A stretch of DNA of 37,427 nucleotides from Bacteroidales bacterium (GTDB lineage: Bacteria > Bacteroidota > Bacteroidia > Bacteroidales > UBA932): the NCBI GenBank assembly GCA_017395045.1, contig JAFPWG010000007.1:1-37427 (forward strand). The letters are read 5' to 3'. The first letter of the stretch is position 1. The number at the start of each line of letters is the position of its first letter. Shown piece by piece: positions 13,010 through 29,338 of this stretch. Both the position numbers and the translations under genes were made by a program. Under the pieces are notes generated by a model. That model was not told the DNA's origin. It saw only the letters and a program-made list of their open reading frames with translations, and made no database searches.

Positions 13010-14017
13010 TTGAGCCCTCTTCCGTCCATATCCGTCATCATTCCCGTCTTCCAGGCATCGGCGTTTATCGATACCTGCTTGCAAAGCCTTGTTTCCCAGG
13101 ATTATACCGGGGAAATGGAATGCATCCTGGTCGATGACTGCGGAACCGACGACAGCATGGACAAGGTCCGCCGTTTCATCGACTCGTACAAGGGAAACAT
13201 CGTCTTCCGTCTGGGCGCCAACGACCGTAACAAAGGTGCGGCTGCAGCCCGGAATACGGGCCTGGCGCTTGCGGAAGGGGAGTATGTCTTCTTCCTGGAC
13301 AGTGACGACCTCCTTCCGGCCGATGCGCTCAGCGCTCTCGCGGCCCCGCTTCGGGAAAGGCGCTACGATATGGTCGTCGGAAAGTATGAGGAAAGCCAGC
13401 CGCTTTCGGAGCCCTGTCCATCCCTGCCGGACGGTACCGTCCTGGAAGGAGCGGATGTCCTGCGCGCCTATCTCCGGAAACAGCTTTCGGTCATCGTGTG
13501 CAGCAAGTTGTACCGGACCTCGTTCATCCGGGAAAGCCGGTTGGATTTCGTGGAGGGGATCATTTACGAAGACGATCTCTGGAGCTTTCAGGCCGCCGTC
13601 GTGGCCGGGTCCCTGTACGTGGTCGACCGGGTAACGTATTATTATACCATCCATCCCGGAAGCGTGATGACCTCCACCGTCCTGCAGAAGCGGATTCGCA
13701 GTTTCCTGACCGTCATCCGGGAAATGTACCGCTACGGGGTGGAGCATGGCCTACGGAACCGGGCTGATTTCCATCACCGGATAGAGCAGTACCGGCTGAA
13801 CCTCCTTCGGGTACTCCTGGACGACAAGTCGCTTTTCAATGAGACCTATCGTTCCGTGCGCCAGTCTGTTCCAAAACCTTGGAAGGAGTGTTTCCGTCTG
13901 GACGGGATGCGCTTGAACAAGCAGGTCCGGGACTTCCATCTGGCTTTGCCCGTCAAGGCCGGGGCTGCCTGGATGCGGGGCTGGTTCAAGGCAGAAGCGC
14001 TGCTGAAGGGCTTATGA
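13010..14017 (+). CDS. Family 2 glycosyltransferase
   Basis: A 335-aa GT-A fold glycosyltransferase. The fold begins at once with ISVIIPVFQASAFIDTCLQSL, and the donor-metal motif is D97-S-D-D100 in FFLDSDDLLPA. The strand before it, EMECILVDDCGTDDS, is typical. The C-terminal part is soluble-looking with no clear membrane segment. The only start that keeps the first beta strand is a TTG at 13010, four nt after the glnS stop. Acceptor and sugar cannot be predicted. Its stop overlaps the start of the next gene as ATGA, so it begins the glycan gene set by coupling to the acyltransferase gene. Confidence 0.88.
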   Translation: MSPLPSISVIIPVFQASAFIDTCLQSLVSQDYTGEMECILVDDCGTDDSMDKVRRFIDSYKGNIVFRLGANDRNKGAAAARNTGLALAEGEYVFFLDSDDLLPADALSALAAPLRERRYDMVVGKYEESQPLSEPCPSLPDGTVLEGADVLRAYLRKQLSVIVCSKLYRTSFIRESRLDFVEGIIYEDDLWSFQAAVVAGSLYVVDRVTYYYTIHPGSVMTSTVLQKRIRSFLTVIREMYRYGVEHGLRNRADFHHRIEQYRLNLLRVLLDDKSLFNETYRSVRQSVPKPWKECFRLDGMRLNKQVRDFHLALPVKAGAAWMRGWFKAEALLKGL

Positions 14018-15042
14018 TCGTCTTTTACCTCGTCATCGCCCTTCTTTGCCTGTGGGGTTTCGGATTCCGGCGGAAAACCGATGGGGACTATCTATCCCGT
14101 CAGCAGGGGGACAGCGTCAAGGGAATCTTCATCCTGATGGTCTTCCTCTTCCATGCGAATGCCTATGTCCAGGAGGCCGGATATGCCTATGCCCACTGGA
14201 CCGATGCGGTTTTCCTGGACCTCTGTGCCAAATTCGGTCAGCTGATCGTGGTGATGTTCCTTTTCTTTTCCGGTTACGGCGTGATGGCGTCCATCCGGAA
14301 CAAAGGAGCGGCTTACGTGCAGGCGATGCCCCGGCACCGGATCCTGACGGTGCTGGTGAACTTCGATGTGGCGGTTGTTGTCTTTGCGGTCCTGCAACTT
14401 CTTCTGGGACGGGTATTTCCCGTCAACCGGTACCTGCTGTCGCTCGTGGGCTGGGAACAGATCGGGAACAGCAACTGGTATATCTTTGTCATCCTGGTCT
14501 GCTATGCGGTTACCTGGCTGTCGGCACTGATTTGTAGGGGCGGGTACAAGATGTTGATAATCAGCGTTTTACTCCTCTCTGCTTTCTATGTTGTCCTGGT
14601 GCATTGCAAGGAACCATACTGGTATAATACGATGGTGGCCTATCCGTTGGGCATGGCCGCCGGGCTCTGGAAGGACCGGCTTGACAAGCTGCAGAAGACC
14701 CCTTTCTACTGGGTGGCCTTGGCGTCGGGCATCCTGTGTCTCGCCCTTACGTATATCCATCATGAGGATCCCGTGGGCCTGGTCCATTCTTTCCGCAGCG
14801 TAGTCTTTGCGGTCGTGATGGTCCTTCTCCTGATGAAAGTGAAGGTGGGGAACCCGGTCCTGGACTGGGCGGGGAAAAACCTGTTCCTCCTTTACATCTT
14901 CCATCGCCTCCCGATGATCCTGCTGTCGCACTTCGATCCCTGGGGGATCACGGCCGGCCATCCGGCGCTGTTTGTACTCCTATCCTTTGCCCTGACGCTC
15001 CTCATCGTGCCGATTGTACGCAGAATCCAAGTCCGATTGTAG
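14014..15042 (+). CDS. Acyltransferase family 3 membrane protein
   Basis: A 342-aa, strongly hydrophobic protein with many membrane segments. The segment GDSVKGIFILMVFLFHANAY near residue 30 resembles the first helix and catalytic His region of the Acyl_transf_3 (OafA/WecH) family, which transfers acetyl or other acyl groups to sugars across the inner membrane. An Arg-rich loop and the helical C-terminus fit too. I set the start at the ATG at 14014, which overlaps the preceding glycosyltransferase stop (ATGA); an earlier in-frame start would lie inside that gene. It probably O-acylates the glycan made by this locus. Confidence 0.8.
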   Translation: MIVFYLVIALLCLWGFGFRRKTDGDYLSRQQGDSVKGIFILMVFLFHANAYVQEAGYAYAHWTDAVFLDLCAKFGQLIVVMFLFFSGYGVMASIRNKGAAYVQAMPRHRILTVLVNFDVAVVVFAVLQLLLGRVFPVNRYLLSLVGWEQIGNSNWYIFVILVCYAVTWLSALICRGGYKMLIISVLLLSAFYVVLVHCKEPYWYNTMVAYPLGMAAGLWKDRLDKLQKTPFYWVALASGILCLALTYIHHEDPVGLVHSFRSVVFAVVMVLLLMKVKVGNPVLDWAGKNLFLLYIFHRLPMILLSHFDPWGITAGHPALFVLLSFALTLLIVPIVRRIQVRL

Positions 15043-15065: not shown

Positions 15066-16595
15066 ATGGCATCGCCGTCAAACATATCGGAAAACAGCCG
15101 GAGAATCGCCAGGAATACCGCATTCCTTTACATCCGGATGCTCATCCTGCTGTTCGTGGGGCTGTACACCTCGCGGGTGGTGCTGAATGCACTGGGGCAG
15201 GACGATTACGGTGTCTACGGGGCCGTAGGCGGAGTCGTCTCTCTCTTCCTGGTGGTCACAGGGGCCGTTTCCGGGGCGATCAGCCGGTTCCTCGCCTTTG
15301 AACTGGGTAAGGAAAAGAGCAGGATGCGGGAGGTCTTCTCCACGACGGTGTCCATCCAGCTGGCCCTGTCGGTCGTGGTTTTCCTGTTGGCGGAAGTCGT
15401 CGGCCTGTGGCTGCTCCATACGCAGATGGACATTCCGGAAGGCCGCATGCAGGCGGCACAGTGGGTCCTCCACTGTTCCATTCTCCTGTTCGTGGTGAAT
15501 ATGCTCAGCGTACCTTACAATGCCGCCATCATCGCCCACGAAAAGATGGATGCCTTCGCCTATATCAGCATCGGAGAGGCGTTGCTGGCACTGGGGGCCG
15601 CCCTTGCCACGCGCTATACCCGGCACGATAAGCTGATCGTGTATGCGGTACTGATGCTGACGGTGGCCGTCATCGTCCGAGCCGTCTATAACCTGTATGC
15701 GCACAGGCACTTCCCGGAATGCCGTTTCCGCCTGAAAAGCATTGACCGTACCGTCATCCGGGAAATCGGTTCCTTCACGGGATGGACCTTCATCGGCAGC
15801 GTGGCCTCGGTGCTGAATGCACACGGTATCAACCTCCTGATGAACATCTTCTTCGGCGTCCGGGTGAATGCCGCCCGGGACGTCACCACGAAACTGGAAA
15901 GCAACGTTTCCCGCTTCATCAACAACATCACGACGGCCATCAATCCGCAAATCAACAAGTCCTATGCAGCCGGAAGGCTGGATTACATGCACCAGCTTGT
16001 CTGCAAGGCGTCCAAATACTCCTATTTCCTGTATTTCTTCTTTGCACTGCCCCTCATCCTGGAGGCTCCGGCACTGCTGAAACTGTGGCTGAACATCGTC
16101 CCGGACCATTCGGTGGCATTCGTGCGGATCGCCCTCCTGACTACCCTGTTCACGGCGCTGGGAACGCCTTTCGTAAACGCCATTTTCGCGACTGGTAACG
16201 TGAAGCGCTACGAGATTATCGCTTCGGTCACCAATGTCCTGGCCTTTCCGCTGTCGTACTTGGCCTTCAAGCTGGGGATGTCCCCGGAATGGGCATACTG
16301 GCTGGTGGGCGCCGTGTCCCTGGGACTCCTCGTCGAAAGGATCGTGATGGCGTGCCGGCAGACGGGCATGCGTCCGGGCATGGTCTGGAAGGATGTCCTG
16401 CTTCCTTCCCTGGTCGTTACCCTGACGGCGGCTATCATACCGATGGCGCTGTTCCTGCTGCAGCCACCATCCGTCGCACGCATGCTGGAGGTGGTTTTCT
16501 CCGGCTTCCTCTGTACCGCGGTCTGTTCCTTCTTCTTCGGGGCGACGGCAGGGGAGCGGGACGTGCTTGTTTCTAAAATTAAGAGCCTGATATGA
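15066..16595 (+). CDS. Polysaccharide flippase (Wzx/MVF-type)
   Basis: A 509-aa protein with regularly spaced hydrophobic segments, of the oligosaccharide flippase family that moves lipid-linked glycans across the inner membrane. Its N-terminus (RRIARNTAFLYIRMLILLFV, then YTSRVVLNALGQDDYGVYGAVG) is clearly paralogous to the second flippase at 24945-26495 (RIAKNTVIIYIRM, TSRLVLQALGASDVGIYSAVG). It heads an operon of tightly overlapping genes for phosphonate synthesis and transfer. Its stop overlaps the next start as ATGA, which suggests it exports the phosphonate-bearing glycan. No Wzy polymerase was seen near it. Confidence 0.87.
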   Translation: MASPSNISENSRRIARNTAFLYIRMLILLFVGLYTSRVVLNALGQDDYGVYGAVGGVVSLFLVVTGAVSGAISRFLAFELGKEKSRMREVFSTTVSIQLALSVVVFLLAEVVGLWLLHTQMDIPEGRMQAAQWVLHCSILLFVVNMLSVPYNAAIIAHEKMDAFAYISIGEALLALGAALATRYTRHDKLIVYAVLMLTVAVIVRAVYNLYAHRHFPECRFRLKSIDRTVIREIGSFTGWTFIGSVASVLNAHGINLLMNIFFGVRVNAARDVTTKLESNVSRFINNITTAINPQINKSYAAGRLDYMHQLVCKASKYSYFLYFFFALPLILEAPALLKLWLNIVPDHSVAFVRIALLTTLFTALGTPFVNAIFATGNVKRYEIIASVTNVLAFPLSYLAFKLGMSPEWAYWLVGAVSLGLLVERIVMACRQTGMRPGMVWKDVLLPSLVVTLTAAIIPMALFLLQPPSVARMLEVVFSGFLCTAVCSFFFGATAGERDVLVSKIKSLI

Positions 16596-18601
16596 AAGCT
16601 TTGATCCTGAATTCCGGCCTGGGTCGCCGGATGGGCGTATTGACCTGCGAGCAGCCGAAGTGCCTCACCGAAGTCGCACCGGGAGAGACCATCCTGAGCC
16701 GTCAGCTCCTGATGCTCGCCGATGCCGGCATCCGCGAGGTCGTGATCACGACAGGCTACCGTGCTACGGACCTGGAGGAGTATTGCCGTTTCCTGGACCT
16801 TCCCCTGCAGGTCCATTTCGTCCATAATCCCGATTATGAGAGTACCAACTATATCTGGAGCATCTGCCTGGCCAGGGACATCCTGGCCGATGACGACGTC
16901 GTCCTGATGCACGGAGACCTGGTGTTTGAGGCCGATGTCCTGGATGCCGTGCTGGCAAGCGGGGATACCTGCATGGCCGTGAGCAGCACCCTTCCGCTCC
17001 CGCAGAAAGACTTCAAGGCCGTGGTCCGGGACGGCCGTATCCAAAGCATCGGCATCCAGTTCTTCGACGATGCCGTGGCCGCCCAGCCCCTGTACCGACT
17101 GAACCGGGCGGACTGGAAGGTCTGGCTGGATGAGATCGTCCGCTTCTGCGCCCGGGACGAAAAGCGCTGCTATGCGGAGAATGCATTCAACGCCGTCAGC
17201 GACCGCTGCCGGATGGTCCCCCTGGACGTCGCCGACCGGCTCTGCGCGGAAATCGACACGCCCGAAGACCTGGAAACCGTATCGGCGTGGGTCCGGGAAC
17301 TGGCTTCCAGGAAGGTATATATGTGTTTTTCCACCGATTACCTCCATTCCGGGCATATCGCCATCATCCGGAAGGCCGGACGTCTGGGGCGGCTGACCAT
17401 CGGCGTCCTCTCTGACGAGGCGGTGGCGAGCTACCGGCGTTTCCCCATGATGCCCTTCCGCGAACGCAAGGAGTTGATGGGGAGCATCAGCGGCGTCGCT
17501 GACGTCGTGGAGCAGAAAACGCTCAGTTATGCCGACAACCTCCGTCGGCTCAAGCCGGACATCGTCGTGCATGGCGACGACTGGCGGGACGGATTCCAGA
17601 AACCCATCCGCGAAGAGGTGGTCCGCGTGCTTGCCGAATACGGTGGGAAACTGGTAGAGTTCCCCTATTCCCGCGATGCCCGCTATGAGGAGATGGACAA
17701 ACGCCGCCGCGCGGAACTGTCCATGCCGGACTTCCGCCGGGGGAGGCTCCGTAAACTTCTGGGAATGAAGGGATTGGTAACGGCCATCGAGGCCCATAGC
17801 GGCATTACCGGCCTGATTGCGGAGAACACCACGGTCCTGCAGGATGGCAAGACCTTCCAGTTCGACGCCATGTGGCTGTCGAGCCTCTGTGATTCTACGG
17901 CCAAGGGAAAGCCGGATACGGAACTGGTGGACATGACCAGCCGTTTCCGGACGGTGGACGACATCATGGAGGTGACCACTAAGCCCATCATCTTTGACGG
18001 TGATACTGGCGGACAGGCCGAGCATTTCATCTACACCGTCCGCTCCCTGGAAAGGATGGGCGTTTCCATGGTGATCATCGAAGACAAGACCGGTCACAAG
18101 GTGAATTCCCTGTTTGGGACGGAGGTCCCCCAGCAGCAGGAGAGCGTGGAGGCCTTCTGCGCGAAGATCGCGGCCGGAGTGAGGGCCAGGAAGACGTCCG
18201 ATTTCATGATCTGCGCCCGCATCGAGAGCCTGATTCTCGAGAAAGGCCAGGAAGACGCCCTTTCCCGTGCCCGTGCCTACGTGGCTGCCGGTGCCGATGC
18301 CATCATGATCCACTCCCGCAAGAAGGACCCTTCGGAGATATTCGCCTTTGTCCGGGCGTTCCGCCGGGAAGACCCGGCGACACCGCTGGTGGTGGTCCCT
18401 ACCGCCTTCAGCAGTGTCACGGAAGACGAGTTCAAGGCGATGGGCGTGAATGTCGTCATCTATGCCAACCAGCTTACCCGCAGCGGCTTCCCGGCCATGC
18501 AGAACGCTGCCAGAAGCATCCTGGAGCATCACCGGGCGCAGGAGTGTGATTCCCTGTGCCTGCCCATCAAAGAGATTATCAATCTGATACCGGAAGACTG
18601 A
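16592..18601 (+). CDS. Trifunctional nucleotidyltransferase / cytidylyltransferase / phosphoenolpyruvate mutase
   Basis: A 669-aa three-domain protein. Residues 1-235 are a LicC/PntC-type nucleotidyltransferase: LNSGLGRRMG and PKCL at the nucleotide site and D109 in VVLMHGDLVFE. Residues 240-365 are a TagD/ECT-type cytidylyltransferase with the H252-S-G-H255 signature. Residues 390-650 are a PEP mutase, with E497-D-K-T-G-H-K-V-N-S506 as the characteristic loop and IIFDGDTGG before it. PEP mutase makes phosphonopyruvate from PEP, the committed step of almost all phosphonate synthesis. PntC-like enzymes activate aminoethylphosphonate with CTP. PEP mutases with one cytidylyltransferase domain are common in Bacteroides; the added N-terminal nucleotidyltransferase is the unusual part. 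Downstream neighbours supply the next steps. Substrates of the two activating domains are inferred. Confidence 0.9.
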   Translation: MKALILNSGLGRRMGVLTCEQPKCLTEVAPGETILSRQLLMLADAGIREVVITTGYRATDLEEYCRFLDLPLQVHFVHNPDYESTNYIWSICLARDILADDDVVLMHGDLVFEADVLDAVLASGDTCMAVSSTLPLPQKDFKAVVRDGRIQSIGIQFFDDAVAAQPLYRLNRADWKVWLDEIVRFCARDEKRCYAENAFNAVSDRCRMVPLDVADRLCAEIDTPEDLETVSAWVRELASRKVYMCFSTDYLHSGHIAIIRKAGRLGRLTIGVLSDEAVASYRRFPMMPFRERKELMGSISGVADVVEQKTLSYADNLRRLKPDIVVHGDDWRDGFQKPIREEVVRVLAEYGGKLVEFPYSRDARYEEMDKRRRAELSMPDFRRGRLRKLLGMKGLVTAIEAHSGITGLIAENTTVLQDGKTFQFDAMWLSSLCDSTAKGKPDTELVDMTSRFRTVDDIMEVTTKPIIFDGDTGGQAEHFIYTVRSLERMGVSMVIIEDKTGHKVNSLFGTEVPQQQESVEAFCAKIAAGVRARKTSDFMICARIESLILEKGQEDALSRARAYVAAGADAIMIHSRKKDPSEIFAFVRAFRREDPATPLVVVPTAFSSVTEDEFKAMGVNVVIYANQLTRSGFPAMQNAARSILEHHRAQECDSLCLPIKEIINLIPED

Positions 18602-18602
18602 G

Positions 18603-19718
18603 ATGCTGGATCCCAAGAAGTTTATCGATACACTCCGCGAGCGGGGCGTCGACTTTTTCACCGGCGTGCCGGACAGCTTGCTGAAAGCTTTCTGCGCTTG
18701 CGTCGCCACCGGTCCCGACCGGCATGTGACGGCCGCCAATGAAGGAGCGGCGGTCGCCCTGGCGGCCGGCCATTATCTGGCCTCGGGCCGTCCCGGCCTG
18801 GTGTATATGCAGAATTCGGGGGAGGGGAACGCCGTGAATCCGCTGGCGTCCCTCACGGATCCGGCTGTTTACGGCATTCCTGTCCTGCTGCTTATTGGCT
18901 GGCGCGGACAGCCTGGGGTCCATGATGAGCCTCAGCACGCCAAGCAGGGGAGAATCACACTTTCGCTACTGGAGGTCATGGGTATTCCGTATGCCGTCCT
19001 GGCCCAGGACGCCGCTTTGGCTGCCGGACAGATCGACACGGCCTTGGCGTCCATGCGTGAAACCCGGAGTCCCTATGCCCTGGTGGTTGAGAAAGGCACG
19101 TTCTCGTCTTTCCCGGGGATGCAGGAGGCGGAGACGGCATGCATGACCCGGGAAGAGGCTATACAGGCTGTCGCCGCTGCCCTGGGGGAGAAGGATGTCA
19201 TCGTGTCCACTACCGGCATGGCCAGCCGGGAACTGTTTGAATACCGGGAAGGTACGGGACAGGGTCATGCCCGTGACTTCCTCTGTGTCGGTTCCATGGG
19301 ACATGCCTCGCAGATCGCCTTGGGCATTTCCCTGGAGCAGCCCGGACGGCGCGTCTGGTGCCTGGACGGGGACGGAGCCTGCATCATGCACATGGGCTCC
19401 CTGACGACCATCTCCGGGGCAGCCGGCTCCAATTTCGTGCATGTTCTCCTGAATAACCATGCGCACGAATCCGTCGGCGGGCAGCCTACGGCTGCGGACC
19501 ATGTCGACTTTCCCGCCGTCGCAAGGGCAGTGGGGTATCCGGTCGTGCTTCAGGCGGACAGCCTGGAAACCCTCAGGACAGTTCTGGGAAGCCTTCCTGG
19601 GAACGGGCCTGTATTCCTGGAAATAAAGGTGCGGAAGGGGCACCGGGAGGATCTGGGCCGGCCCACCACTACACCCGGACAGAACATGTCGGACTTCATG
19701 GATTATCTGAAACGATGA
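18603..19718 (+). CDS. aepY: Phosphonopyruvate decarboxylase
   Basis: A 371-aa thiamine diphosphate enzyme that decarboxylates phosphonopyruvate to phosphonoacetaldehyde, pulling the unfavourable PEP mutase reaction forward. The TPP-activating Glu is E47 in ANEGAAVALAAG. WRGQPGVHDEPQH at 100-112 is a stretch typical of phosphonopyruvate and sulfopyruvate decarboxylases. The Mg-TPP motif runs from G255-D-G-A to N283-N284. It starts 1 nt after the PEP mutase stop and its end overlaps the dehydrogenase gene by 4 bp. The symbol follows the Bacteroides fragilis polysaccharide B gene. Sulfopyruvate decarboxylase is the main alternative, ruled against by the adjacent PEP mutase. Confidence 0.92.
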   Translation: MLDPKKFIDTLRERGVDFFTGVPDSLLKAFCACVATGPDRHVTAANEGAAVALAAGHYLASGRPGLVYMQNSGEGNAVNPLASLTDPAVYGIPVLLLIGWRGQPGVHDEPQHAKQGRITLSLLEVMGIPYAVLAQDAALAAGQIDTALASMRETRSPYALVVEKGTFSSFPGMQEAETACMTREEAIQAVAAALGEKDVIVSTTGMASRELFEYREGTGQGHARDFLCVGSMGHASQIALGISLEQPGRRVWCLDGDGACIMHMGSLTTISGAAGSNFVHVLLNNHAHESVGGQPTAADHVDFPAVARAVGYPVVLQADSLETLRTVLGSLPGNGPVFLEIKVRKGHREDLGRPTTTPGQNMSDFMDYLKR

Positions 19719-20773
19719 GTGCGCAGCAGGTAATATTGGAAGGCCTGGACGGGCTTTCGGCGGCTTTGCAGGGGCGGAAACGGGTCCTGCTGGTGGCCGA
19801 TACCTCCTTCCCTTTCCTGTCCGTCAGGGATGATGTACTGGCGGCCGTGCGGCCTGCCGCGGTCTTCAACGACTTCCATTCCAATCCTGTCGATGAGGAA
19901 ATCCGCTCCGGCCACCGTCTATTCCGCGAAACCGGGTGCGATGCCCTGGTGGCGGTGGGCGGAGGAAGTGCCATGGATGTGGCCAAATGCATCAAGCTTT
20001 CCGAGATTGCCCGGGACGGTGCCGCCTGCGGGATACTGCTCATCGCCATTCCCACGACGGCCGGTACCGGTGCCGAATCCACCGGCAATGCCGTGTATTA
20101 CCTGGATGGAGTGAAACAGACGGTGGCCCACCCCTGCATCCGCCCCGATTATGCCTTTTTGGATCCCTCGGTACTAGAGACCCTCCCGCTCTACCAGAAG
20201 AAGTGCACCCTGATGGATGCGCTGTGCCAGGGCATTGAATCATGGTGGTCGGTGGCTGCCACGCCCGAAAGCCGTCTTTATTCGGAAAGGGCGATAAAGG
20301 GCATCACGACCCATTGGCGCCGGTATATCTTCGACAATGCCCCGGAAGCGGCCCGGCAGGTGATGTGGGCGGCCAATGACGGCGGACGGGCCATCCACAT
20401 CGCCCATACCACGGCGGCGCACGCCATGAGCTACAAATTGGCTTCGGTTTTCGGTCTCCCGCATGGGCACGCCGTGGCCGTGTGCCTGCCCGAAATCTGG
20501 GAGTATATGCTGCCGCGGGCAGACAAAACCCTGCAGGCGACCTTTGCCGATATCGCCGCGGCCATGGGGGCGTCGGACGTTGCGGAAGCGGTGGCCATGT
20601 TCCGAAGCATGATGGCGGATCTGTCGCTGCAGAGCCCGGTTGCAACGGAGAATCGCGGATCCCTCCTGGATACGCTGGCTGCTTCCGTCAATCAGACACG
20701 CCTTGCCAACAATCCGGTAACCCTGGATACGGAAGCGTGCAGATTCCTTTACGATAGAATTGTCCGGAAATGA
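19715..20773 (+). CDS. Iron-type alcohol dehydrogenase, probable phosphonoacetaldehyde reductase
   Basis: A 352-aa group III alcohol dehydrogenase. NAD(P)-binding is marked by VAVGGGSAMDVAKCIK (79-94) and IPTTAGTGAESTG (112-124). Metal-ligand positions are D168, H236 (AAHAMSY) and H250 (LPHGHA). The position four after D168 is Gln172 (DALCQGIE), where typical members have His. Next to PEP mutase and phosphonopyruvate decarboxylase, its expected reaction is reduction of phosphonoacetaldehyde to 2-hydroxyethylphosphonate, as for PhpC-type enzymes. The absence of an aminotransferase in the window supports this over an aminoethylphosphonate route. It overlaps both neighbours by 4 bp (ATGA). The substrate is inferred from context. 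Confidence 0.87.
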   Translation: MSAQQVILEGLDGLSAALQGRKRVLLVADTSFPFLSVRDDVLAAVRPAAVFNDFHSNPVDEEIRSGHRLFRETGCDALVAVGGGSAMDVAKCIKLSEIARDGAACGILLIAIPTTAGTGAESTGNAVYYLDGVKQTVAHPCIRPDYAFLDPSVLETLPLYQKKCTLMDALCQGIESWWSVAATPESRLYSERAIKGITTHWRRYIFDNAPEAARQVMWAANDGGRAIHIAHTTAAHAMSYKLASVFGLPHGHAVAVCLPEIWEYMLPRADKTLQATFADIAAAMGASDVAEAVAMFRSMMADLSLQSPVATENRGSLLDTLAASVNQTRLANNPVTLDTEACRFLYDRIVRK

Positions 20774-22017
20774 AGGAATTGAAGAAGAAACTCAAGCGCC
20801 TGCTGCTTCCTCTCTGGTACCACGGCTTCTGCAAGCCGCGGATTCTCCGGCGCATCCGTCGGCAGGACCGGATAACGGTGGTCTTCTTCACGATGAACGT
20901 GGCCATGTGGAAATACGACGGTTTCTTCAAACTGCTTCAGGAGGATCCGCGTTTCCATCCGGTCATCGTCTCTTTCCTGATTCCCACAGACAAGGAGGAA
21001 TACCGCCGTTACGTGCAGCAGAGCATGCAGGATTTCTTTGAGGCCAAGGGCTATCCCTTTTACGCATCTTATGATTTCGAGACGGGTAAGTATCTGGATA
21101 TCAAACAGCTGCATCCGGATATCCTCTTCTATGCCCAACCTTACGAGAGTGCTCCGGAACCCTATCGCACCAAGCATTTCCTGAGGACCTGCCTGTTCTC
21201 GTACATCCCGTATTGTTATAACATGGAGGATCTTCCGCTGTTCTACAACCAGCCCTTCATGAAACTGGCCTGGCGGATGTTCTTCCCTACGGAGCACCAC
21301 GCCCGGATGGTGGCGAAGTATTCCCGCCTTGGCGGCCGCCACGTCGTCGTGGCCGGATACCCCATGGCCGACGCCCTCCTTTCCCGGGAGCCTGCGGACG
21401 GGAGTGTCTGGAAGGAGAGGGACCCGCTGGTCAAGCGCGTCATCTGGGCTCCCCACCATTCCGTCCTTCCCAAGGATTTCCTGGATTATTCCCGTTTCCT
21501 GGAACTGGCCGACACGATGGTGGCGCTTGCGGAGAAGTACCGGGGCAGGGTCCAGTTCGCCTTCAAGCCCCATCCCCGCCTGAAACCCAAGCTGATGCAG
21601 CATCCCGACTGGGGCGTCGAGCGGACGGAGGCCTTCTACAGGCTATGGAAGGAAATGCCCAATACGGTGTTCGTGGAAGGGGACTACGTGGACCTGTTCC
21701 GCACGTCGGACGCCCTGATTCACGATTGCTCCAGCTTCATGGGCGAATACCTGTTCATGAACAAGCCCGTGGCCTTCCTGGGGAACCGCGGGGCGGTAAC
21801 CAGGGGGCTTAACGACTTTGCGAAAGCTTGTCTGGAGCAGCATTACCAGTTGGATGCCCGGGAAGACATCGAACGTTTCCTGGAAGAGGTCGTCCTGGGC
21901 GGGGACGATCCGATGGAACCCTCCCGCAGGACCTTCCGGGAGACGGTGCTTGCCACCGACGGCCAGAGTGTGGCCCGCCGCATCTATGATGCCTTCCGGG
22001 CGGGGATTCAGGGGTGA
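20770..22017 (+). CDS. CDP-glycerol glycerophosphotransferase-like (TagF/TagB family) transferase
   Basis: A 415-aa GT-B-like protein of the family that moves a phospho-alcohol from a CDP carrier onto a glycan or lipid (TagB/TagF in wall teichoic acid synthesis). Family marks in the second half are WAPHHSVLP near 225, FKPHPRLKP at about 263-271, and HDCSSFMGEYLFMNKP at about 319-334, which binds the nucleotide phosphate. The basic N-terminus (KKKLKRLLLP and RRIRRQ) fits peripheral membrane attachment. Sitting directly after the phosphonate genes, it is the best candidate to move CMP-activated hydroxyethylphosphonate to the glycan. An ordinary glycerol- or ribitol-phosphate donor is possible, but no gene for making one is seen here. 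Confidence 0.8.
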   Translation: MKELKKKLKRLLLPLWYHGFCKPRILRRIRRQDRITVVFFTMNVAMWKYDGFFKLLQEDPRFHPVIVSFLIPTDKEEYRRYVQQSMQDFFEAKGYPFYASYDFETGKYLDIKQLHPDILFYAQPYESAPEPYRTKHFLRTCLFSYIPYCYNMEDLPLFYNQPFMKLAWRMFFPTEHHARMVAKYSRLGGRHVVVAGYPMADALLSREPADGSVWKERDPLVKRVIWAPHHSVLPKDFLDYSRFLELADTMVALAEKYRGRVQFAFKPHPRLKPKLMQHPDWGVERTEAFYRLWKEMPNTVFVEGDYVDLFRTSDALIHDCSSFMGEYLFMNKPVAFLGNRGAVTRGLNDFAKACLEQHYQLDAREDIERFLEEVVLGGDDPMEPSRRTFRETVLATDGQSVARRIYDAFRAGIQG

Positions 22018-22029
22018 ATTAATGTAATA

Positions 22030-22845
22030 ATGGATAAAACGATGCCGGTTGTCAGTGTAATAGTTCCCAGCTACAACCTCGGGGAGTACCTCCCTGAAAC
22101 GCTGGACAGTGTCCTCTCCCAGACGTTTGCCGACTGGGAATGCCTGATCGTGGAAAACGGGTCCGCGGACCGTTCTCCCGCCATCGCCGCCGCCTATGCG
22201 GCGAAGGATGCGCGTTTCCGCGTTCTGGAGATGCCGGGAAACGTGGGCGTCGCCGCCGCCCGCAACAAAGGGTTGGAGGAGGCGGCCGGAAAGTACATCC
22301 TCCTGCTGGATGCCGACGACTTGATCGCGCCGCACTATATGGCCGAGGCCGTCCGGGCGCTGGATGCGGATCCGGCGCTGACGCTGGTTTACGGCCGTGC
22401 AGAACGTTTCGGAGCCCAGACCCGGTGGGATCTGCCGCCCTTCTCGATGGATACGATGCTTGCTAGGAACTGCCTGTATATCAGCTGCTTTTTCCGTCGC
22501 GAGCAGGCGGCCCGGTTCGACCCGGAGTTCCGGACCGGCTTCGAGGACTGGGACTTCTGGCTGTCTTTGCTGGAAGGAGTGGACTGCCCTAAGGTCCTGC
22601 AGCTGCCTTCCCTCTGCTTCCGTTACCGGACCCGCCGCCGTTCCCGGAACTTCGGCGTGACCGACGACGCGGTGAAGGACATCCGGAAACGCCTCTGGGA
22701 GAAACATAAGGATTTGTACGGCAGGTATTTCTGCAATCCGCTGGAGACGGTGGAATACCGCCGGATGGAAAGCGCTTTCCGCAAGGCTTCCCGCTGGTCG
22801 CTGGCCTGGAAACTGCGTCTTTTGTACAGGAGATTGTTCTCATGA
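22030..22845 (+). CDS. Family 2 glycosyltransferase
   Basis: A 271-aa GT-A glycosyltransferase. PVVSVIVPSYNLGEYLPETL opens the fold, ECLIVENGSADRS follows, and the metal-binding motif is D94-A-D-D97 in LLLDADDLIAP. FEDWDFWLSLL near 175 is the usual acceptor-side ED motif. The gene begins 12 nt after the TagF-like gene and its stop overlaps the next gene (ATGA), so it is in the same operon. Donor and acceptor sugars are unknown. Confidence 0.88.
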   Translation: MDKTMPVVSVIVPSYNLGEYLPETLDSVLSQTFADWECLIVENGSADRSPAIAAAYAAKDARFRVLEMPGNVGVAAARNKGLEEAAGKYILLLDADDLIAPHYMAEAVRALDADPALTLVYGRAERFGAQTRWDLPPFSMDTMLARNCLYISCFFRREQAARFDPEFRTGFEDWDFWLSLLEGVDCPKVLQLPSLCFRYRTRRRSRNFGVTDDAVKDIRKRLWEKHKDLYGRYFCNPLETVEYRRMESAFRKASRWSLAWKLRLLYRRLFS

Positions 22846-23657
22846 ACGGAGTCCTTGTCATCATCGTCACTTTCAACGGCATGAAGTGGCTGGACCGGTG
22901 CCTCGGAAGCGTCCGCGCTTCGGAGCTCCCGGCCGATCTCTACGTGTGGGACAATGATTCCACGGATGGCTCGGCAGACTTTGTCCAGGCACGCTTTCCG
23001 GAGGCGAAACTGGTCCGGAGCGCTGAAAACCTGGGCTTTGCCGAGGCCAATAACAAAGGCATGCAGTATGCCCTGGACAAAGGCTACGGCTATGTGTACC
23101 TCCTGAATCAGGATGCCTGGATCGAACCCTCTACGCTGGGGACGCTCGTCGCCGAATCTGAAGCCCATCCCGAGTTCGCCGTCCTGAGCCCCCTGCAGAT
23201 GACGGACGGGTTTGAGAAGCTTGACAAGCAGTTCGGGCGCATCATGAAGGAACCTGTGAAGCGCGTGATGGCGGCGCATTGGCTGGTCCCAAGGGCAGCC
23301 CTTGAGCGTATAGGGCTGTTTTCCGGTTTGTTCCCGATTTATGGGAATGACGACAACTGGTGCGACCGGGCCCGGTATCACGGTTTCAAGATCGGCATCG
23401 TACCTGCGGCGCGGGCGGTACATGATCGGGCTTATCGGGAGGAACCGAAGGAAAAGGTGATTTTCCGGAATTATTACATGGGCTCCCTTGTGCGCCTGTG
23501 CGACATCAACCGGCCGCTCTGGGAACGCTTCCTGTTCGTATGCCTGTTTACGGCCGTGAAGTCCGTAAAATACGGAAGCATCCTTCCCTGCAAGCACTTC
23601 CGCGCTTTGGTCCGGATGCTTCCCGAAATCCGTCAGGCCCGACAGGCCTTCCGCTAG
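22842..23657 (+). CDS. Family 2 glycosyltransferase (rhamnosyltransferase-like)
   Basis: A 271-aa glycosyltransferase of the WbbL-like branch. VLVIIVTFNGMKWLDRCL starts the fold, LYVWDNDSTDGS follows, and the DxD position is N89-Q-D91 (LLNQDAWIEP), common in this branch. NLGFAEANNKG at 63-73 is typical of rhamnosyltransferase-like proteins, and the GNDDNWCDR motif lies near residue 167. It is the last gene of the operon that begins at 15066. Its stop TAG overlaps the stop of the convergent transporter gene within the palindrome CTAG. The rhamnose preference is only a family trend. Confidence 0.87.
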   Translation: MNGVLVIIVTFNGMKWLDRCLGSVRASELPADLYVWDNDSTDGSADFVQARFPEAKLVRSAENLGFAEANNKGMQYALDKGYGYVYLLNQDAWIEPSTLGTLVAESEAHPEFAVLSPLQMTDGFEKLDKQFGRIMKEPVKRVMAAHWLVPRAALERIGLFSGLFPIYGNDDNWCDRARYHGFKIGIVPAARAVHDRAYREEPKEKVIFRNYYMGSLVRLCDINRPLWERFLFVCLFTAVKSVKYGSILPCKHFRALVRMLPEIRQARQAFR

Positions 23658-24955
23658 ATGGCTTTCCGGTGTACCCGGATTCCGTAAGCGGCGATGACCG
23701 CGAAGCATAGCGTGGGCAGGAGGAACGAAAGGTTCACCGCCGGCATGCCGAAAAGGGTTCCCTTGTCGATGATCAACGCCTGGAGCGGCGGCAGGACCGA
23801 GCCGCCCAGGATGGCCATGATCAGCCCCGCCGCCCCGAATTTCGCATCTTCCCCGATCCCTTCCAGGGCGATGCCGTAGATCGTCGGGAACATCAGGGAC
23901 ATGCAGGCGGAAACGGCCACGAGGCAGTACAAGCCGGCGGTTCCGGGCAGGAAAATGACGCCCAGCGTACAGGCGATGCCGGCCAGGGCGAAGGTGTACA
24001 GCATCTTCCCGGGCTGAAAGTACTTCATCAGCCAGGTGCAGATGAAGCGGCTGCAGCAGAAGAGGATCATCGCGGCGATGTTATACCGCTGCGAGAGTAC
24101 TTCGGCATCGATCTCGCTCATCCCCCTTTCCATGAAGATACGGGTTCCATACTGGATGATGAAGGTCCAGCACATGATCTGCACGCCCACATAGAAGAAC
24201 TGGGCGACGACCCCTTCGCGGTAGCGGGGGATGCCCAGCAGATGGCGGATGGACGCACCGACGCTGCGGGTGTTCTCTTCCTTCACCCGGGGCATCCTGG
24301 CTAGCAGGATGATTAGGAAAATGACGAGGATCACCACGCCGATGGCGACGTACGGGCCGATGAGGATGCCCAGGTCGGACTGCTTCATGGCTTCGAACTC
24401 CGCTTCGGAAAGGGTTGCCCGGGCTGCGGAATCCATCGGATTCAGCCGGGCCTGGATGAAGTTCATCGCCACGAACATTCCGCAGAGGGAGCCGATGGGA
24501 TTGAACGACTGGGCGAAGTTGAGCCGGCGGGTGGCCGTGGCCGGGTCGCCCATGGCGAGGATGTAGGGATTGGCGCTGGTCTCCAGGAAACTGAGTCCGC
24601 AGGTCAGGATGAAATAGGCGACCAGGAAGGGCCAGTACGACCCCGTGGACCGGGCTCCGATGAACAGGAAGGCACCGGCTGCATACAGTCCCAGACCCAT
24701 CAGGATGCCGCTTTTGTAGGAGAAGCGGCGGATGAAAAGGGCGGCCGGGAGGGCCATGGCGAAATACCCGCCATAGAAGGCCGCCTGCGTAAGGGCGCCC
24801 TGCGCGACGCTCATCCGGAAGATCTTGGAAAAGGCCTTGACCATCGGGTTGGTGATGTCGTTGGCGAAACCCCAGAGCGCGAAGCAGGAAGTGATGAGGA
24901 TGAAAGGGAGCAGGTAGTTTACGCCTTCGTATTTGAAGATATCCTTATTCTTCAT
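23654..24955 (-). CDS. fucP: Sugar:H+ symporter of the FucP (L-fucose permease) family
   Basis: A 433-aa major facilitator protein with about twelve hydrophobic segments. FALWGFANDITNPMVKAF near the start, QAAFYGGYFAMALPA, and the segment LETSANPYILAMGDP are typical of FucP and related glucose/galactose transporters. I use the ATG at 24955 (MKNKDIFKYEGV), which overlaps the end of the upstream flippase by 11 bp; an earlier in-frame start would lie further inside that gene. It is the last gene of a minus-strand operon with a flippase and a glycosyltransferase, so the imported sugar (fucose in the named member) may supply the glycan. The fucose specificity is not certain: the family also takes glucose, galactose and mannose. 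Confidence 0.85.
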   Translation of the reverse strand: MKNKDIFKYEGVNYLLPFILITSCFALWGFANDITNPMVKAFSKIFRMSVAQGALTQAAFYGGYFAMALPAALFIRRFSYKSGILMGLGLYAAGAFLFIGARSTGSYWPFLVAYFILTCGLSFLETSANPYILAMGDPATATRRLNFAQSFNPIGSLCGMFVAMNFIQARLNPMDSAARATLSEAEFEAMKQSDLGILIGPYVAIGVVILVIFLIILLARMPRVKEENTRSVGASIRHLLGIPRYREGVVAQFFYVGVQIMCWTFIIQYGTRIFMERGMSEIDAEVLSQRYNIAAMILFCCSRFICTWLMKYFQPGKMLYTFALAGIACTLGVIFLPGTAGLYCLVAVSACMSLMFPTIYGIALEGIGEDAKFGAAGLIMAILGGSVLPPLQALIIDKGTLFGMPAVNLSFLLPTLCFAVIAAYGIRVHRKAI

Positions 24956-26495
24956 TTCGAGTGGAAGAGGTGAAAAGATTGCGACGGATAAAGGCGAGGG
25001 CTTTCCGCTTTTCATCGCGGCTGAAGCCCAGAAGGCCGATGAGGACGGCAGTGACGAGGCCGGTGACCAGGAAGCCGGCGAGATGCTGCCAGGGCCCGGT
25101 CAGGGGAATGGTCCTGTAAGCCAGGAGGTAACCCGTCATCAGGAGGGAAATCCCGAGCGGTGCGGCATAGGCACGGCGCAGGAACCCGAGGACGTCGAAC
25201 CGGAACTGAGCGCGAAGGAGGAAGAACTGGATGACGCGGTTCAGGAAATCGGAAATGACGAAACAGGTCAGGATGGTGTATGCGGGAGCTCCGTTCCTGA
25301 ACAGGATATAACCGGCGGGAAGACACAGGAGGAACAGGACCGTGATCTCGATCTTGTACCACTTGATGCGTCCCAGCGCATTGATCAGCTGGGCCAGGCC
25401 GGCCGATGTCGTGGCGACGGCCGCAATGAGGAGGGTCCAGCGGGCCATGGTGATGGTTTCGGGCGGCATGTTGCTTCCCAGCCACAGTCCCATCAGGAAT
25501 TCCAGTTCGCTCCAGAGGGGGAAGAACAGCAGGAGGAACAGCAGGAGGCAGATCCGGCACGCCCGGCGGGCCAGCCGCGTGGCCGTCTCCACCCTTCCGG
25601 CGCCCACGTTTTGCGTGATTTGCGGGGCCGATGCGGCATCGAAGTTATTGACAAACTGGATGACGTAGTTCTGCAGGGTGAAAGCGTAGAAATAGGCGGC
25701 ATTGGTCGTGGTTCCGAAAAAGGCGTTGATGAGCATGTTGGAACCCTGGGACCGGGCGATGATGGCGGAGGACGACAGGAGATTGTAGTTGCTGAAAGTG
25801 AGGACTTCCCGGTATGCCGATCTCTCGCGTACGAGATTCCACCGGATGATCTCCGGCCATCGCCGCGCACTCATCCAGTGGTAGGCGATAAAGGCGATCC
25901 AAGTGCTGGCGCTCATCATGACGGCATAGATCCGGAGTCCGTAGGGATGTCCGCGCAGAAGGAACAGCAGCAGAACCAGCGACAGCTTCAGCAGGGTGTT
26001 GACGATGTCGACGATGGCCATCGTCCCGAATTTCTCATGGACCGTGAACAGGCTCTGGAAGGGGGTGTTGGCGATGCCGAGGCAGGCGACGATGGTCGAT
26101 ACCTGGAACACGAACATCGCGTCGGCCTCTTTTCCGGGCGGGACGTTCAGGCCGGTGTGGATATACCAGAGGCCGATGCTTTCCAGCAGCACGAGGATGA
26201 CGGCCGCTCCGCTGAGGTGGATGACGTGACAGATGTTGAACATCCGGTTGGGGTTGCCGTCGGCCTTGCCCATTTCGATGTTCATGAAGCGGATGGTGGT
26301 GATGGAAAGCGCCCCGGTGATGACTCCGACGAGCGCCACCGTGCTGCCTACGGCGCTGTAGATGCCCACGTCCGACGCGCCCAGCGCCTGCAGGACCAGC
26401 CGGCTGGTGATCAGTCCCACCAGGATGGTCAGGGCCATGCGGATGTAGATGATGACCGTGTTCTTGGCGATGCGTATGTCGGAGTTCTGTGCCAT
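24945..26495 (-). CDS. Polysaccharide flippase (Wzx/MVF-type), second copy
   Basis: A 516-aa multi-pass membrane protein of the oligosaccharide flippase family, paralogous to the protein at 15066-16595 through its whole N-terminal half. Motifs include NTVIIYIRMALTILVGL, LVLQALGASDVGIYSAVG and FIAYHWMSARRWPEI. I chose the ATG at 26495, which shares its A with the stop of the upstream glycosyltransferase gene (TAATG); this gives the same N-terminal context as the paralogue. Two flippases in one locus suggest two exported glycans, or one in reserve. Confidence 0.86.
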   Translation of the reverse strand: MAQNSDIRIAKNTVIIYIRMALTILVGLITSRLVLQALGASDVGIYSAVGSTVALVGVITGALSITTIRFMNIEMGKADGNPNRMFNICHVIHLSGAAVILVLLESIGLWYIHTGLNVPPGKEADAMFVFQVSTIVACLGIANTPFQSLFTVHEKFGTMAIVDIVNTLLKLSLVLLLFLLRGHPYGLRIYAVMMSASTWIAFIAYHWMSARRWPEIIRWNLVRERSAYREVLTFSNYNLLSSSAIIARSQGSNMLINAFFGTTTNAAYFYAFTLQNYVIQFVNNFDAASAPQITQNVGAGRVETATRLARRACRICLLLFLLLFFPLWSELEFLMGLWLGSNMPPETITMARWTLLIAAVATTSAGLAQLINALGRIKWYKIEITVLFLLCLPAGYILFRNGAPAYTILTCFVISDFLNRVIQFFLLRAQFRFDVLGFLRRAYAAPLGISLLMTGYLLAYRTIPLTGPWQHLAGFLVTGLVTAVLIGLLGFSRDEKRKALAFIRRNLFTSSTRNEE

Positions 26496-27403
26496 TACCT
26501 GCAATAGGGGACGCCGATGTGGAAGCGTTTGCGGAACTTGAAACGTAAGATGCCCAGGGCGAGGTTGCACTTGGAGATATGCTGGTCCTTCCTGAATGGT
26601 TCGGCCATCCGGGCTACCTCAGGACTCTCCCGGGTGTACTGTTCCCAGAACTCATAAAAAGGATAGAGAGGTATGTTCTCTTTCCGGAAAAACTGCTGTA
26701 CGTGCCAGTAGACCAGCATCCGGTCCCACACTTTCCGGGGTGTGTCGAAGAATTGCTTGCTCAGACTGTCGTCCCGGGAGGTCAGGCAGTACAGGACGGA
26801 AGGATCGTATGAAACCTTCCGGGCCTTGTGCCCGGATACGACGGAAAACAGGTAGTCATTCGCACAGACCGTCTCTTCGAAGCGGATCCGTTCGCGCAGG
26901 ATGAAGTCCCGGCGGATCATTTTTCCCCAGGGCTCCGTGTGCATGTAACGGTTATGGAATTCAATCAGTTCGGGGCGGCCGGCATACCTTTCCAGCAGTT
27001 CACTCCGGTATTCAAGCCGATAGGAGGGAAGGAGGGTCTCGGAATCCACGCTCTTGCACCCGAAATAGATGATGTCATCGTCATCTTCACAGTGGCTGTC
27101 GAGGAGGGAGAGGAACCCGTCGGCGAACAAGTCGTCGGAATCCAGGAATACCAGCCATTCACCCGTTGCGTGGTCCAGGCCGACATTCCGGGCGTATCCG
27201 GCTCCTTTCCCTTCCGGGGTGAATATCACCCGGCAATCGGCCCTCTCCAATCCGGGAAAGGCCTGACTGCCGGTCAGGGAAGGGTCGCTTGCATCATCGA
27301 CGACGATCACTTCCACGTCTTCCCGCTGCGGAACGGAATCCAGCGCCCGGCGCAGAAGCTCAGGATGGTTGCGGTTGGGGACGATGATGGAATAGCGCTT
27401 CAT
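26495..27403 (-). CDS. Family 2 glycosyltransferase
   Basis: A 302-aa GT-A glycosyltransferase. It starts MKRYSIIVPNRNHPELLRRA, has VEVIVVDDASDPS, and carries the metal motif D88-S-D-D91 in VFLDSDDLFAD. It is the first gene of the minus-strand operon with a flippase and the FucP-type transporter. Its ATG lies only 5 nt from a minus-strand TAATTTTG box. The C-terminal part is hydrophilic with many aromatic residues. Sugar specificity unknown. Confidence 0.88.
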   Translation of the reverse strand: MKRYSIIVPNRNHPELLRRALDSVPQREDVEVIVVDDASDPSLTGSQAFPGLERADCRVIFTPEGKGAGYARNVGLDHATGEWLVFLDSDDLFADGFLSLLDSHCEDDDDIIYFGCKSVDSETLLPSYRLEYRSELLERYAGRPELIEFHNRYMHTEPWGKMIRRDFILRERIRFEETVCANDYLFSVVSGHKARKVSYDPSVLYCLTSRDDSLSKQFFDTPRKVWDRMLVYWHVQQFFRKENIPLYPFYEFWEQYTRESPEVARMAEPFRKDQHISKCNLALGILRFKFRKRFHIGVPYCR

Positions 27404-27408
27404 AAAGG

Positions 27409-27440
27409 CAAAATTATGAAATAAATCCTATCTTTGCAAA
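27409..27440 (-). promoter_or_regulatory. Minus-strand promoter of the glycosyltransferase-flippase-fucP operon
   Basis: On the minus strand TTTG (27440-27437), 20 nt, then TAATTTTG (27416-27409). The start codon follows after only 5 nt. Its -33 element directly abuts the -7 box of the divergent plus-strand promoter. Confidence 0.6.
27429..27436 (+). promoter_or_regulatory. -7 promoter box of the 27463 glycosyltransferase
   Basis: Exact TATCTTTG, 26 nt before the TTG start. No recognisable -33 element at 19-20 nt. Confidence 0.6.
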
Positions 27441-27462
27441 GTACCAGAACGTTATCATCGGA

Positions 27463-28305
27463 TTGATCGCAGTCATCGTCATCAATTTCGGATCACCTGA
27501 CCTGACGGTCCGATTCGTCCGGGAAGAGTGCGCCAAGATCCGGGAGTCCCATCAGGTCGTCGTCGTGGACAATGCATCCACCGGCGTCTCCTACGACGCC
27601 CTGCGGCAGGCTCTTCCCGAAGCGGTCGTCTTGCGGTCCCCGGACAATCAGGGTTTTGCGCGTGCCAACAACCAGGGAGCGGAGTATGCGCTCCGGCATT
27701 TCCGGCCCTCCCATTTCCTGTTTTCCAATAACGACATCTATTTCCAGGATGCCCATGTGGTCGATTTCCTTCTTGACGTGATGAAAAGCCATCCGGAGGC
27801 GGGATTGATCGGACCGCAGGTCGTGGGCACGGACGGGAAAAGGCAGAGCCCCAATCCCCGGAGAACCTTTGCCGACACCTACCTGCTCCCGACGTGGGGA
27901 AAATGGTTTTTGAAAAAGGAGACTTTGCGGAAAAGGGTGCAGGCGGATTATCGGCAGAATGCCCAGGAGGGGCCCTGCGGCTGGATCCAGGGTTCCTGTT
28001 TCCTGGCCGATGCCGATGTTTTCGAGCGTGTAGGCGGATTCGACCCCGCCACATTCCTTTACGGAGAGGAACTGATCCTGACCGAACGGTTTGCCCGTGC
28101 CGGCAAAACGGTTTATTTCTGTCCACGCGTTACCGTCGTTCATGACCAGGGCGCGGTAACCCGGACGCTTTATGGCTCCAATCAGATCCGCAGGATGGAG
28201 TTCCAAAGCCTGGCATATTATTACCGGAAATATGCAGGTACTCCTCAATGGCAGGTTTTGCTTGGGAGAATAATCCTGGAATTCAATATCTTACGCGGAA
28301 AATAA
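27463..28305 (+). CDS. Family 2 glycosyltransferase (rhamnosyltransferase-like)
   Basis: A 280-aa glycosyltransferase of the WbbL-like branch. AVIVINFGSPDLTVRFV starts the fold, VVVVDNAST follows, and NQGFARANNQG at 62-72 and N89-N-D91 in FSNNDIYFQD mark the donor site. QGSCFLADADVFERVGGFD and LYGEELILTERF (about 183-215) are the family's acceptor-side motifs. No ATG is available at the right place, so the start is taken as TTG at 27463, which opens directly on the first strand. It stands alone on the plus strand between two minus-strand genes, and its stop lies 2 nt from the stop of the convergent gene. Confidence 0.86.
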   Translation: MIAVIVINFGSPDLTVRFVREECAKIRESHQVVVVDNASTGVSYDALRQALPEAVVLRSPDNQGFARANNQGAEYALRHFRPSHFLFSNNDIYFQDAHVVDFLLDVMKSHPEAGLIGPQVVGTDGKRQSPNPRRTFADTYLLPTWGKWFLKKETLRKRVQADYRQNAQEGPCGWIQGSCFLADADVFERVGGFDPATFLYGEELILTERFARAGKTVYFCPRVTVVHDQGAVTRTLYGSNQIRRMEFQSLAYYYRKYAGTPQWQVLLGRIILEFNILRGK

Positions 28306-28307
28306 GG

Positions 28308-29267: not shown

Positions 29268-29297
29268 GGATTCAAAAAAGCACGGTCCTGTTGGGTG

Positions 29298-29305
29298 CAA
29301 AGATA
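29298..29305 (-). promoter_or_regulatory. -7 promoter box of the 28308-29267 glycosyltransferase
   Basis: Exact TATCTTTG on the minus strand, about 30 nt before the GTG start at 29267. It is divergent to the plus-strand box at 29327, 21 nt away. Confidence 0.6.
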
Positions 29306-29326
29306 GAAATAATCGCCCGTTTTTTC

Positions 29327-29334
29327 TATCTTTG
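29327..29334 (+). promoter_or_regulatory. -7 promoter box of the 29339 operon
   Basis: Exact TATCTTTG with only 4 nt between its last base and the ATG at 29339, so the message would begin at or next to the start codon. No -33 match at the usual spacing. Confidence 0.6.
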
Positions 29335-29338
29335 TTTC

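Follow-up and report, generated by a model that had tools for sequence, protein, structure and literature searches.

What becomes of a phosphonate in a bacterium that has the enzymes to make one, but an alcohol dehydrogenase in the place of the expected aminotransferase? The question is raised by four genes at 16592..22017 in a 37,427-nucleotide stretch (hereafter the window) of contig JAFPWG010000007.1 from assembly GCA_017395045.1. The host is an uncultured member of the Bacteroidia whose own genome assembly measures 2.67 Mb and is 96% complete. The genes encode a phosphoenolpyruvate (PEP) mutase fused to two nucleotidyltransferase domains, a phosphonopyruvate decarboxylase, an iron-type alcohol dehydrogenase (ADH) and a TagF-like transferase. 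Open reading frames and Pfam/TIGRFAM assignments (PF12804, PF01467 and PF13714 within the one fusion protein) confirm this content, which had been proposed in a preliminary description of the sequence. Our analysis indicates that the four genes probably form a phosphonyl-tailoring cassette within a surface-glycan locus, in which 2-hydroxyethylphosphonate (HEP) would be made, activated as a CMP derivative and transferred to a glycan.

A predicted route to glycan-bound HEP

The mutase domain scores 388.9 bits against TIGR02320 (cut-off 319.55) and contains the motif EDKTGHKVNS, and the decarboxylase scores 488.6 bits against TIGR03297 (cut-off 312.5), which places both in these families. The mutase would convert PEP to phosphonopyruvate and the decarboxylase would convert phosphonopyruvate to phosphonoacetaldehyde, which the ADH is predicted to reduce to HEP. 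CMP-HEP would then be formed by the Fom1-type cytidylyltransferase (CyT) domain of the fusion protein, perhaps with help from its N-terminal NTP-transferase (NTP) domain, which may act instead of it in some relatives. Finally, the TagF-like transferase would pass the HEP phosphonyl group from CMP to a hydroxyl of a glycan whose assembly probably falls to the glycosyltransferases and flippase encoded alongside. The four genes had been described as overlapping, which holds for the last two pairs (4 bases each) but not for the fusion and decarboxylase genes, which lie 1 base apart. The flippase-like gene upstream also overlaps the fusion gene by 4 bases. The GC content is 0.54 to 0.61 throughout the window, and the genome contains a single PEP mutase.

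A dehydrogenase in place of the aminotransferase

None of the scanned window proteins matched an aminotransferase family (three proteins matched no family), in agreement with the preliminary description. That description had also proposed a genome search for an aminoethylphosphonate (AEP) transaminase, which we ran with the PhnW/AepZ protein of locus L057 (L and G numbers denote loci and genomes), itself over the TIGR03301 cut-off. No match was returned at E ≤ 1e-3 in the 96% complete assembly, and the genome does not qualify for an AEP-type Pnt pathway. Class V aminotransferases (PF00266) are found at eight places in this genome, four of them over the cut-off and two of them strong; one strong match is SerC and the other (L002, E 4e-129) is assigned to PF00266 only.

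The relation between the two enzymes is clearest within the bacterium's own family, where 18 of 398 sampled genomes contain a match that extends over both CyT and PEP mutase. With the query genomes counted in both groups, the cassette ADH (E < 1e-40) occurs in 13 of the 18, PhnW (E < 1e-200) in three others and both together in none. G194 and G249, two genomes with the altered CyT motif HPGL described below, have neither. Each of the three PhnW loci has a separate NTP gene. The cassette is thus present in 13 of the 398 genomes.

To follow the ADH further, one genome per species was scanned for 84,980 species, yielding 205 relatives, and the locus counts given here refer to the best 80 of these 205. 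A PEP mutase gene accompanies the ADH gene in 73 of the 80 (within 1.5 kb in 71 of the 73), and a decarboxylase is also present in 70 of the 80. This linkage to both enzymes is the context expected of a phosphonoacetaldehyde reductase (PhpC/FomC-like) and, with the mutual exclusion of ADH and PhnW, supports the earlier proposal that a dehydrogenase stands in for the transaminase. The 73 loci divide into 38 from Bacteroidota, 33 from Bacillota and 2 from Spirochaetota; L041 and L058 are one contig counted twice, and near-copies such as L082/L099 were kept. The gene order is mostly mutase-ADH-decarboxylase in Bacillota and mutase-decarboxylase-ADH in Bacteroidota. A Segatella copri plasmid has the identical four-gene order. 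Its fusion protein is 70.6% identical to that of the window, its ADH homologue bears the annotation 'phosphonoacetaldehyde reductase', and its PF04464 gene belongs to another type than the one in the window (no BLAST match). Two ADH relatives outside the 73 (L106 and L135) start at contig ends. The cassette is therefore widespread in gut and rumen bacteria and not peculiar to the window genome.

An order-wide sample of 364 genomes gives its frequency. PEP mutase exceeds the TIGR02320 cut-off in 16 of them, comprising 13 with the ADH cassette (window included), one with an aminotransferase (G623/L143), one at a contig edge (G555/L153) and one of unassigned type (G412), whose PEP mutase has 533 residues and no CyT. 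PEP mutase is rare in the order as sampled, yet the ADH form prevails there.

The ADH also occurs in several variants. The decarboxylase and ADH share one open frame of 736-778 residues in L045, L050 and L089, a possible fusion. Residue 172, in the DALxH motif, is Gln in the window and the commonest variants and His in others; the His of this motif is presumably a metal ligand. Glu260 was considered as a metal ligand and rejected in view of known ADH structures. Members of the cassette ADH family also stand last in two C-P lyase operons (L094:7905-9062 and L097:7920-9041), recognised by Pfam matches to PhnI and PhnJ in L094 and through common clusters in L097. No PEP mutase was seen near either. 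These two enzymes may act in catabolism, on HEP or phosphonoacetaldehyde.

The cytidylyltransferase domain is of the Fom1 type

The top structure match of the CyT domain is the CyT of Fom1 (5x3d; E 3.6e-41), with 64 of 120 residues identical (53%). The homology to Fom1, the HxGH motif and the common residues characterise it as a Fom1-type HEP cytidylyltransferase, and the product of Fom1 is CMP-HEP according to the accessible text of PMC6697681. The preliminary description had named PntC-type CTP activation as the precedent. Activation with CMP is still supported, but judged by sequence it is best assigned to the Fom1-type CyT domain and not to a PntC.

HxGH is intact in 83 of the 85 readable ADH-linked proteins of our first set, which includes the window and L078 (counted as an ADH locus) and leaves out L098 and L130, in which no CyT was readable. 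The exceptions, the S. copri plasmid protein (L010:14001-16007) and L047, both read NSAH and have intact NTP motifs, a hint that the NTP domain may take over from CyT in such proteins. All five CyT-PEP mutases without ADH in the first set read HPGL.

A prediction made in advance was then tested on 25 new loci out of 393 order-level and 395 phylum-level genomes, and HxGH was found in all 17 new ADH loci. L143, where PntC is fused to an aminotransferase, reads HPGI and fits the prediction. L161 and L162 have an aminotransferase and no CyT match, and L153, a contig end, was left undecided. Four further loci (L157-L160) have PhnW and neither ADH nor a separate PntC, with HHGH intact; the aminotransferases of L157 and L160, the two tested, are over the TIGR03301 cut-off. 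The predicted rule, by which an aminotransferase goes with a separate PntC and a CyT that has lost its histidine, fitted the three HPGL/PhnW loci known beforehand and L143. It failed in L157-L160 (four genomes, one family) and is therefore not claimed. The CyT of these four loci presumably serves AEP, making it a candidate AEP-specific cytidylyltransferase of the PF01467 family.

Residue 247 separates the groups more cleanly. It is Ser in Fom1 and in 102/102 ADH-linked CyTs, Gly in the four aminotransferase-linked CyTs that keep HxGH (L157-L160) and Ile, Val or Thr in six of six HPGL/HPGI proteins. The CyTs of L157-L160 also differ from the ADH-linked ones at residues 280, 282, 329 and 358. 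This pattern suggests that these letters track the chemistry more closely than the histidines. The HPGL proteins form a single clade nested among the two-domain HEP loci, and still do when L143 is added, and the motif change therefore reflects few independent events.

The N-terminal domain is not a PntC

PntC was ruled out as the identity of the N-terminal domain, since it matches Tde-PntC (6pd1) at E 0.015 only, compared with E 2e-39 for the stand-alone NTP gene from the one AEP locus tested. In the accessible text of PMC6697681, Glu104 of Tde-PntC is placed for contact with the AEP amine. His107 of the window protein aligns with this residue when the alignment is routed through NTP genes of AEP loci. 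The corresponding residue set is H-G-D in all 63 readable fused NTP domains and in all three readable split genes (L098, L109 and L125), and E/D-S-D in 20/20 other NTP rows (18 distinct genes). A His where PntC has a Glu to contact the amine would fit an amine-free substrate such as HEP. Two-domain loci do without an NTP domain, which is thus not required for such a cassette.

Larger proteins with this domain were also found. An NTP-transferase fusion of ~600 residues with a CobD/HisC-like pyridoxal phosphate (PLP) enzyme lies beside the HEP cassette of L076 (9156-10967), in a layout that we take to resemble FrbH. An NTP-transferase protein of ~600 residues also adjoins the cassette of L081 (a PLP domain was shown for L076 only), and N-terminal matches occur in proteins of 601-617 residues at 11 family-search loci (L029-L039).

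TagF and LicD point to a probable link with glycans

The window TagF-like protein belongs to PF04464 (34.4 bits, cut-off 22.1, profile positions 142-291 of 367). In-house profiles recognised LicD or TagF genes in 44 of the 73 PEP-mutase loci, within the flanking sequence retrieved. In one locus the cassette ADH is fused with a LicD domain into a single protein of 660 residues (L051:4684-6663), and elsewhere LicD is joined to a more distant iron-type ADH domain (L109:5092-7926) or to an NTP domain (L080:3169-4842). The ADH-LicD fusions and the TagF context point to a probable role in glycan decoration.

TagF proteins of the window type (E ≤ 1e-20) are present in nine of the 398 family genomes and lie in an HEP locus in three (window, G248 and G266), an overlap with a hypergeometric probability of 0.002 when relatedness is ignored. 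Outside HEP loci, a cytidylyltransferase lies within 4 kb of five of six TagF relatives, of the IspD type in L164, L166 and L168 and of PF01467 in L163 and L167; L165 was left unassigned. No cytidylyltransferase other than the PEP mutase fusion was found among the window proteins scanned. With the fusion as the sole candidate in a TagF context, CMP-HEP is a likely donor for the transferase.

Weighing the alternatives

Several observations weigh against a cassette for HEP decoration. The ADH fits no curated NCBIfam model (TIGR03405 126.9, cut-off 423.7) and, being under every curated cut-off, takes its name from context. Its relatives L090, L111 and L127 are without any cassette gene, although L111 has neighbours in common with the cassette loci L102 and L108. 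The fusion protein carries two nucleotidyltransferase domains with intact motifs, one of which is left over with no explained role. In S. copri and L047 the CyT motif is NSAH, and part of the advance prediction failed in L157-L160, where HHGH is intact. Two genomes of the HEP type, G245 and G248, hold a distant class V aminotransferase (28-29% identity; E 4e-25 and 8e-22), and in the remaining ones all matches to the PhnW query are weaker than 1e-7. TagF is no universal partner of the cassette, as neither LicD nor TagF is seen in the retrieved flank of 29 of the 73 PEP-mutase loci, some of which lie on short contigs, and the count of cytidylyltransferases near TagF comes without a background rate for glycan loci. 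Moreover, the genome is only 96% complete.

This last point, together with L002, leaves some room for AEP as the product, if an unlinked or atypical aminotransferase were to make it, one nucleotidyltransferase domain to activate it and the ADH to do something else. A class I/II aminotransferase gene (PF00155) does adjoin the mutase gene of L051 (7942-9138), and L046 and L050 have genes of that cluster close to their mutases. We consider this improbable, since no PhnW match is present in the own genome, AEP loci of the same family have PhnW and a separate NTP gene and no cassette ADH, the NTP domain has His where PntC has the Glu that contacts the amine, and the CyT letters are those of Fom1 and unlike those of aminotransferase-linked CyTs. 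The preferred reading, that HEP is activated and attached to a glycan, would in its early steps also be compatible with a variant in which the TagF-like enzyme builds HEP into a polymer or places it in the backbone as a linking diester, as in teichoic acids, instead of adding it terminally. TagF itself polymerises glycerol phosphate, and the free hydroxyl of HEP could accept the next unit. However, LicD, the decorator in the phosphocholine case, is near the cassette in many loci, and no sequence feature examined tells priming from polymerising; we regard the variant as rather unlikely. There is also little to recommend the view that HEP, instead of being bound to a glycan, is set free or converted further into a different phosphonate, for example methylphosphonate or some diffusible compound. 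HEP is described as an intermediate of other pathways in the accessible parts of PMC8931226 and PMC9381506, but no such oxygenase family was found among the scanned window proteins (MpnS and HepD were not searched for genome-wide). The cassette moreover has a flippase-like gene on one side and glycosyltransferases on the other, and LicD/TagF neighbours and an ADH-LicD fusion are found elsewhere.

The locus and its neighbours

The cassette is flanked by a flippase-like gene upstream and two glycosyltransferase genes downstream, all on the same strand (Table 1). The listed start of the acyltransferase-3 gene overlaps the preceding gene, and its true start is probably near 14014. A second surface-glycan block at 24945-32420 encodes a flippase-like protein, several family 2 glycosyltransferases, an FrhB-like iron-sulphur protein and a polysaccharide pyruvyltransferase. 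A tyrosine recombinase gene (PF00589; 447-1652, minus strand) is ~15 kb away from the cassette.

Table 1 Genes and domains of the cassette and adjoining genes in the window.
Feature	Position	Strand	Details
Glycosyltransferase family 2	13010..14017	+	PF00535
Acyltransferase-3 family membrane protein	13879..15042	+	PF01757
MatE/oligosaccharide-flippase-like protein	15066-16595	+	PF01554
NTP-transferase/CyT/PEP mutase fusion	16592-18601	+	669 aa; PF12804 + PF01467 + PF13714
N-terminal MobA/LicC-like NTP-transferase domain	16592..17296 (residues 1-235)	+	PF12804; His107 codon 16910-16912
Fom1-type CyT domain	17306..17716 (residues 239-375)	+	PF01467; HSGH motif 17345-17356
PEP mutase domain	17741..18601	+	TIGR02320; EDKxxxxxNS at 18080-18109
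Phosphonopyruvate decarboxylase	18603-19718	+	371 aa; TIGR03297
Iron-type ADH, proposed phosphonoacetaldehyde reductase (PhpC-like role)	19715-20773	+	352 aa; PF00465/PF25137
TagF-like transferase, proposed CMP-HEP:glycan phosphonotransferase	20770-22017	+	415 aa; PF04464
Glycosyltransferase family 2	22030..22845	+	PF00535
Glycosyltransferase family 2	22842..23657	+	PF00535

A possible fosfomycin connection

A midpoint-rooted tree of the CyT-PEP mutase region (89 rows) places the triple fusions and their split or cut relatives on one side and the two-domain proteins on the other. L091 and L104, metagenome-assembled genomes (MAGs) titled Oscillospiraceae, group near the window, pointing to either inter-phylum transfer or contamination of the MAGs. 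CyTs of two-domain cassettes share up to 73% identity with that of Fom1, which falls within the two-domain group (100/99) on a CyT tree of few columns. Fom1 feeds an antibiotic pathway, with Fom2 as the decarboxylase and FomC as the reductase, in which the CMP is later taken off. We tentatively propose a broader scenario, which we hold to be possible and less than even in likelihood: CMP-HEP tailoring of glycans may be widespread and unrecognised in gut and rumen bacteria, the fosfomycin front end may share its origin, with the transient CMP tag on HEP as a relic of its activation for attachment to a surface glycan, and within the family Ser/Gly247 of CyT and His/Glu107 of the NTP domain may switch between HEP and AEP. 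This might explain in evolutionary terms why fosfomycin synthesis passes through CMP-HEP. In practical terms, the choice between ADH and PhnW offers a simple gene rule, backed by named residues. It would predict the identity of the surface phosphonate in many gut and rumen Bacteroidota and Clostridia, where the described example, in the accessible text of PMC12413058, carries AEP.

Comparison with known systems

The fosfomycin front end has the same CyT-PEP mutase architecture and CMP-HEP (accessible text of PMC6697681), whereas the window cassette stands beside glycan genes and TagF, its relatives have LicD/TagF neighbours, and its fusion differs from Fom1 by the extra NTP domain and a CyT that is only 53% identical. 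The Pnt pathway (Rice 2019, PMC6697681), in the portion of that paper available, likewise includes fusions of PEP mutase with nucleotidyltransferases, among them 42 triple fusions of such domains in 1485 Ppm sequences, and CMP activation is proposed there for surface tailoring. The window differs in having an iron-type ADH instead of PhnW and an NTP domain that is not PntC-like, and the available main text of Rice 2019 does not contain the word 'dehydrogenase'.

The preliminary description considered a HEP-bearing glycan, the reading that the Fom1-type CyT, the gene linkage and the gene fusions now support as likely, to be new or little described. Titles and abstracts revealed no paper on a HEP cassette from Bacteroidota or Bacillota, a weak negative as subscription journals are thinly covered. 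HEP-bearing phosphonoglycans of Glycomyces and Stackebrandtia were, however, reportedly described by Yu in 2014, and HEP esters occur on polysaccharides of marine dissolved matter according to the accessible text of PMC9381506; both resemble the window in having HEP on a polysaccharide and differ in lineage. Polysaccharide B of Bacteroides fragilis, first put forward as the nearest case, shares a C-P group on a Bacteroidota surface polysaccharide but, in the accessible text of PMC12413058 and compared by description only, carries AEP and not HEP. The nearest known relatives thus include Fom1 and the HEP glycans of other organisms, and not polysaccharide B alone. Thus, HEP on polysaccharide is already known, and the gut-bacterial cassette, with good support from its sequences, appears to be a widespread new version of it.

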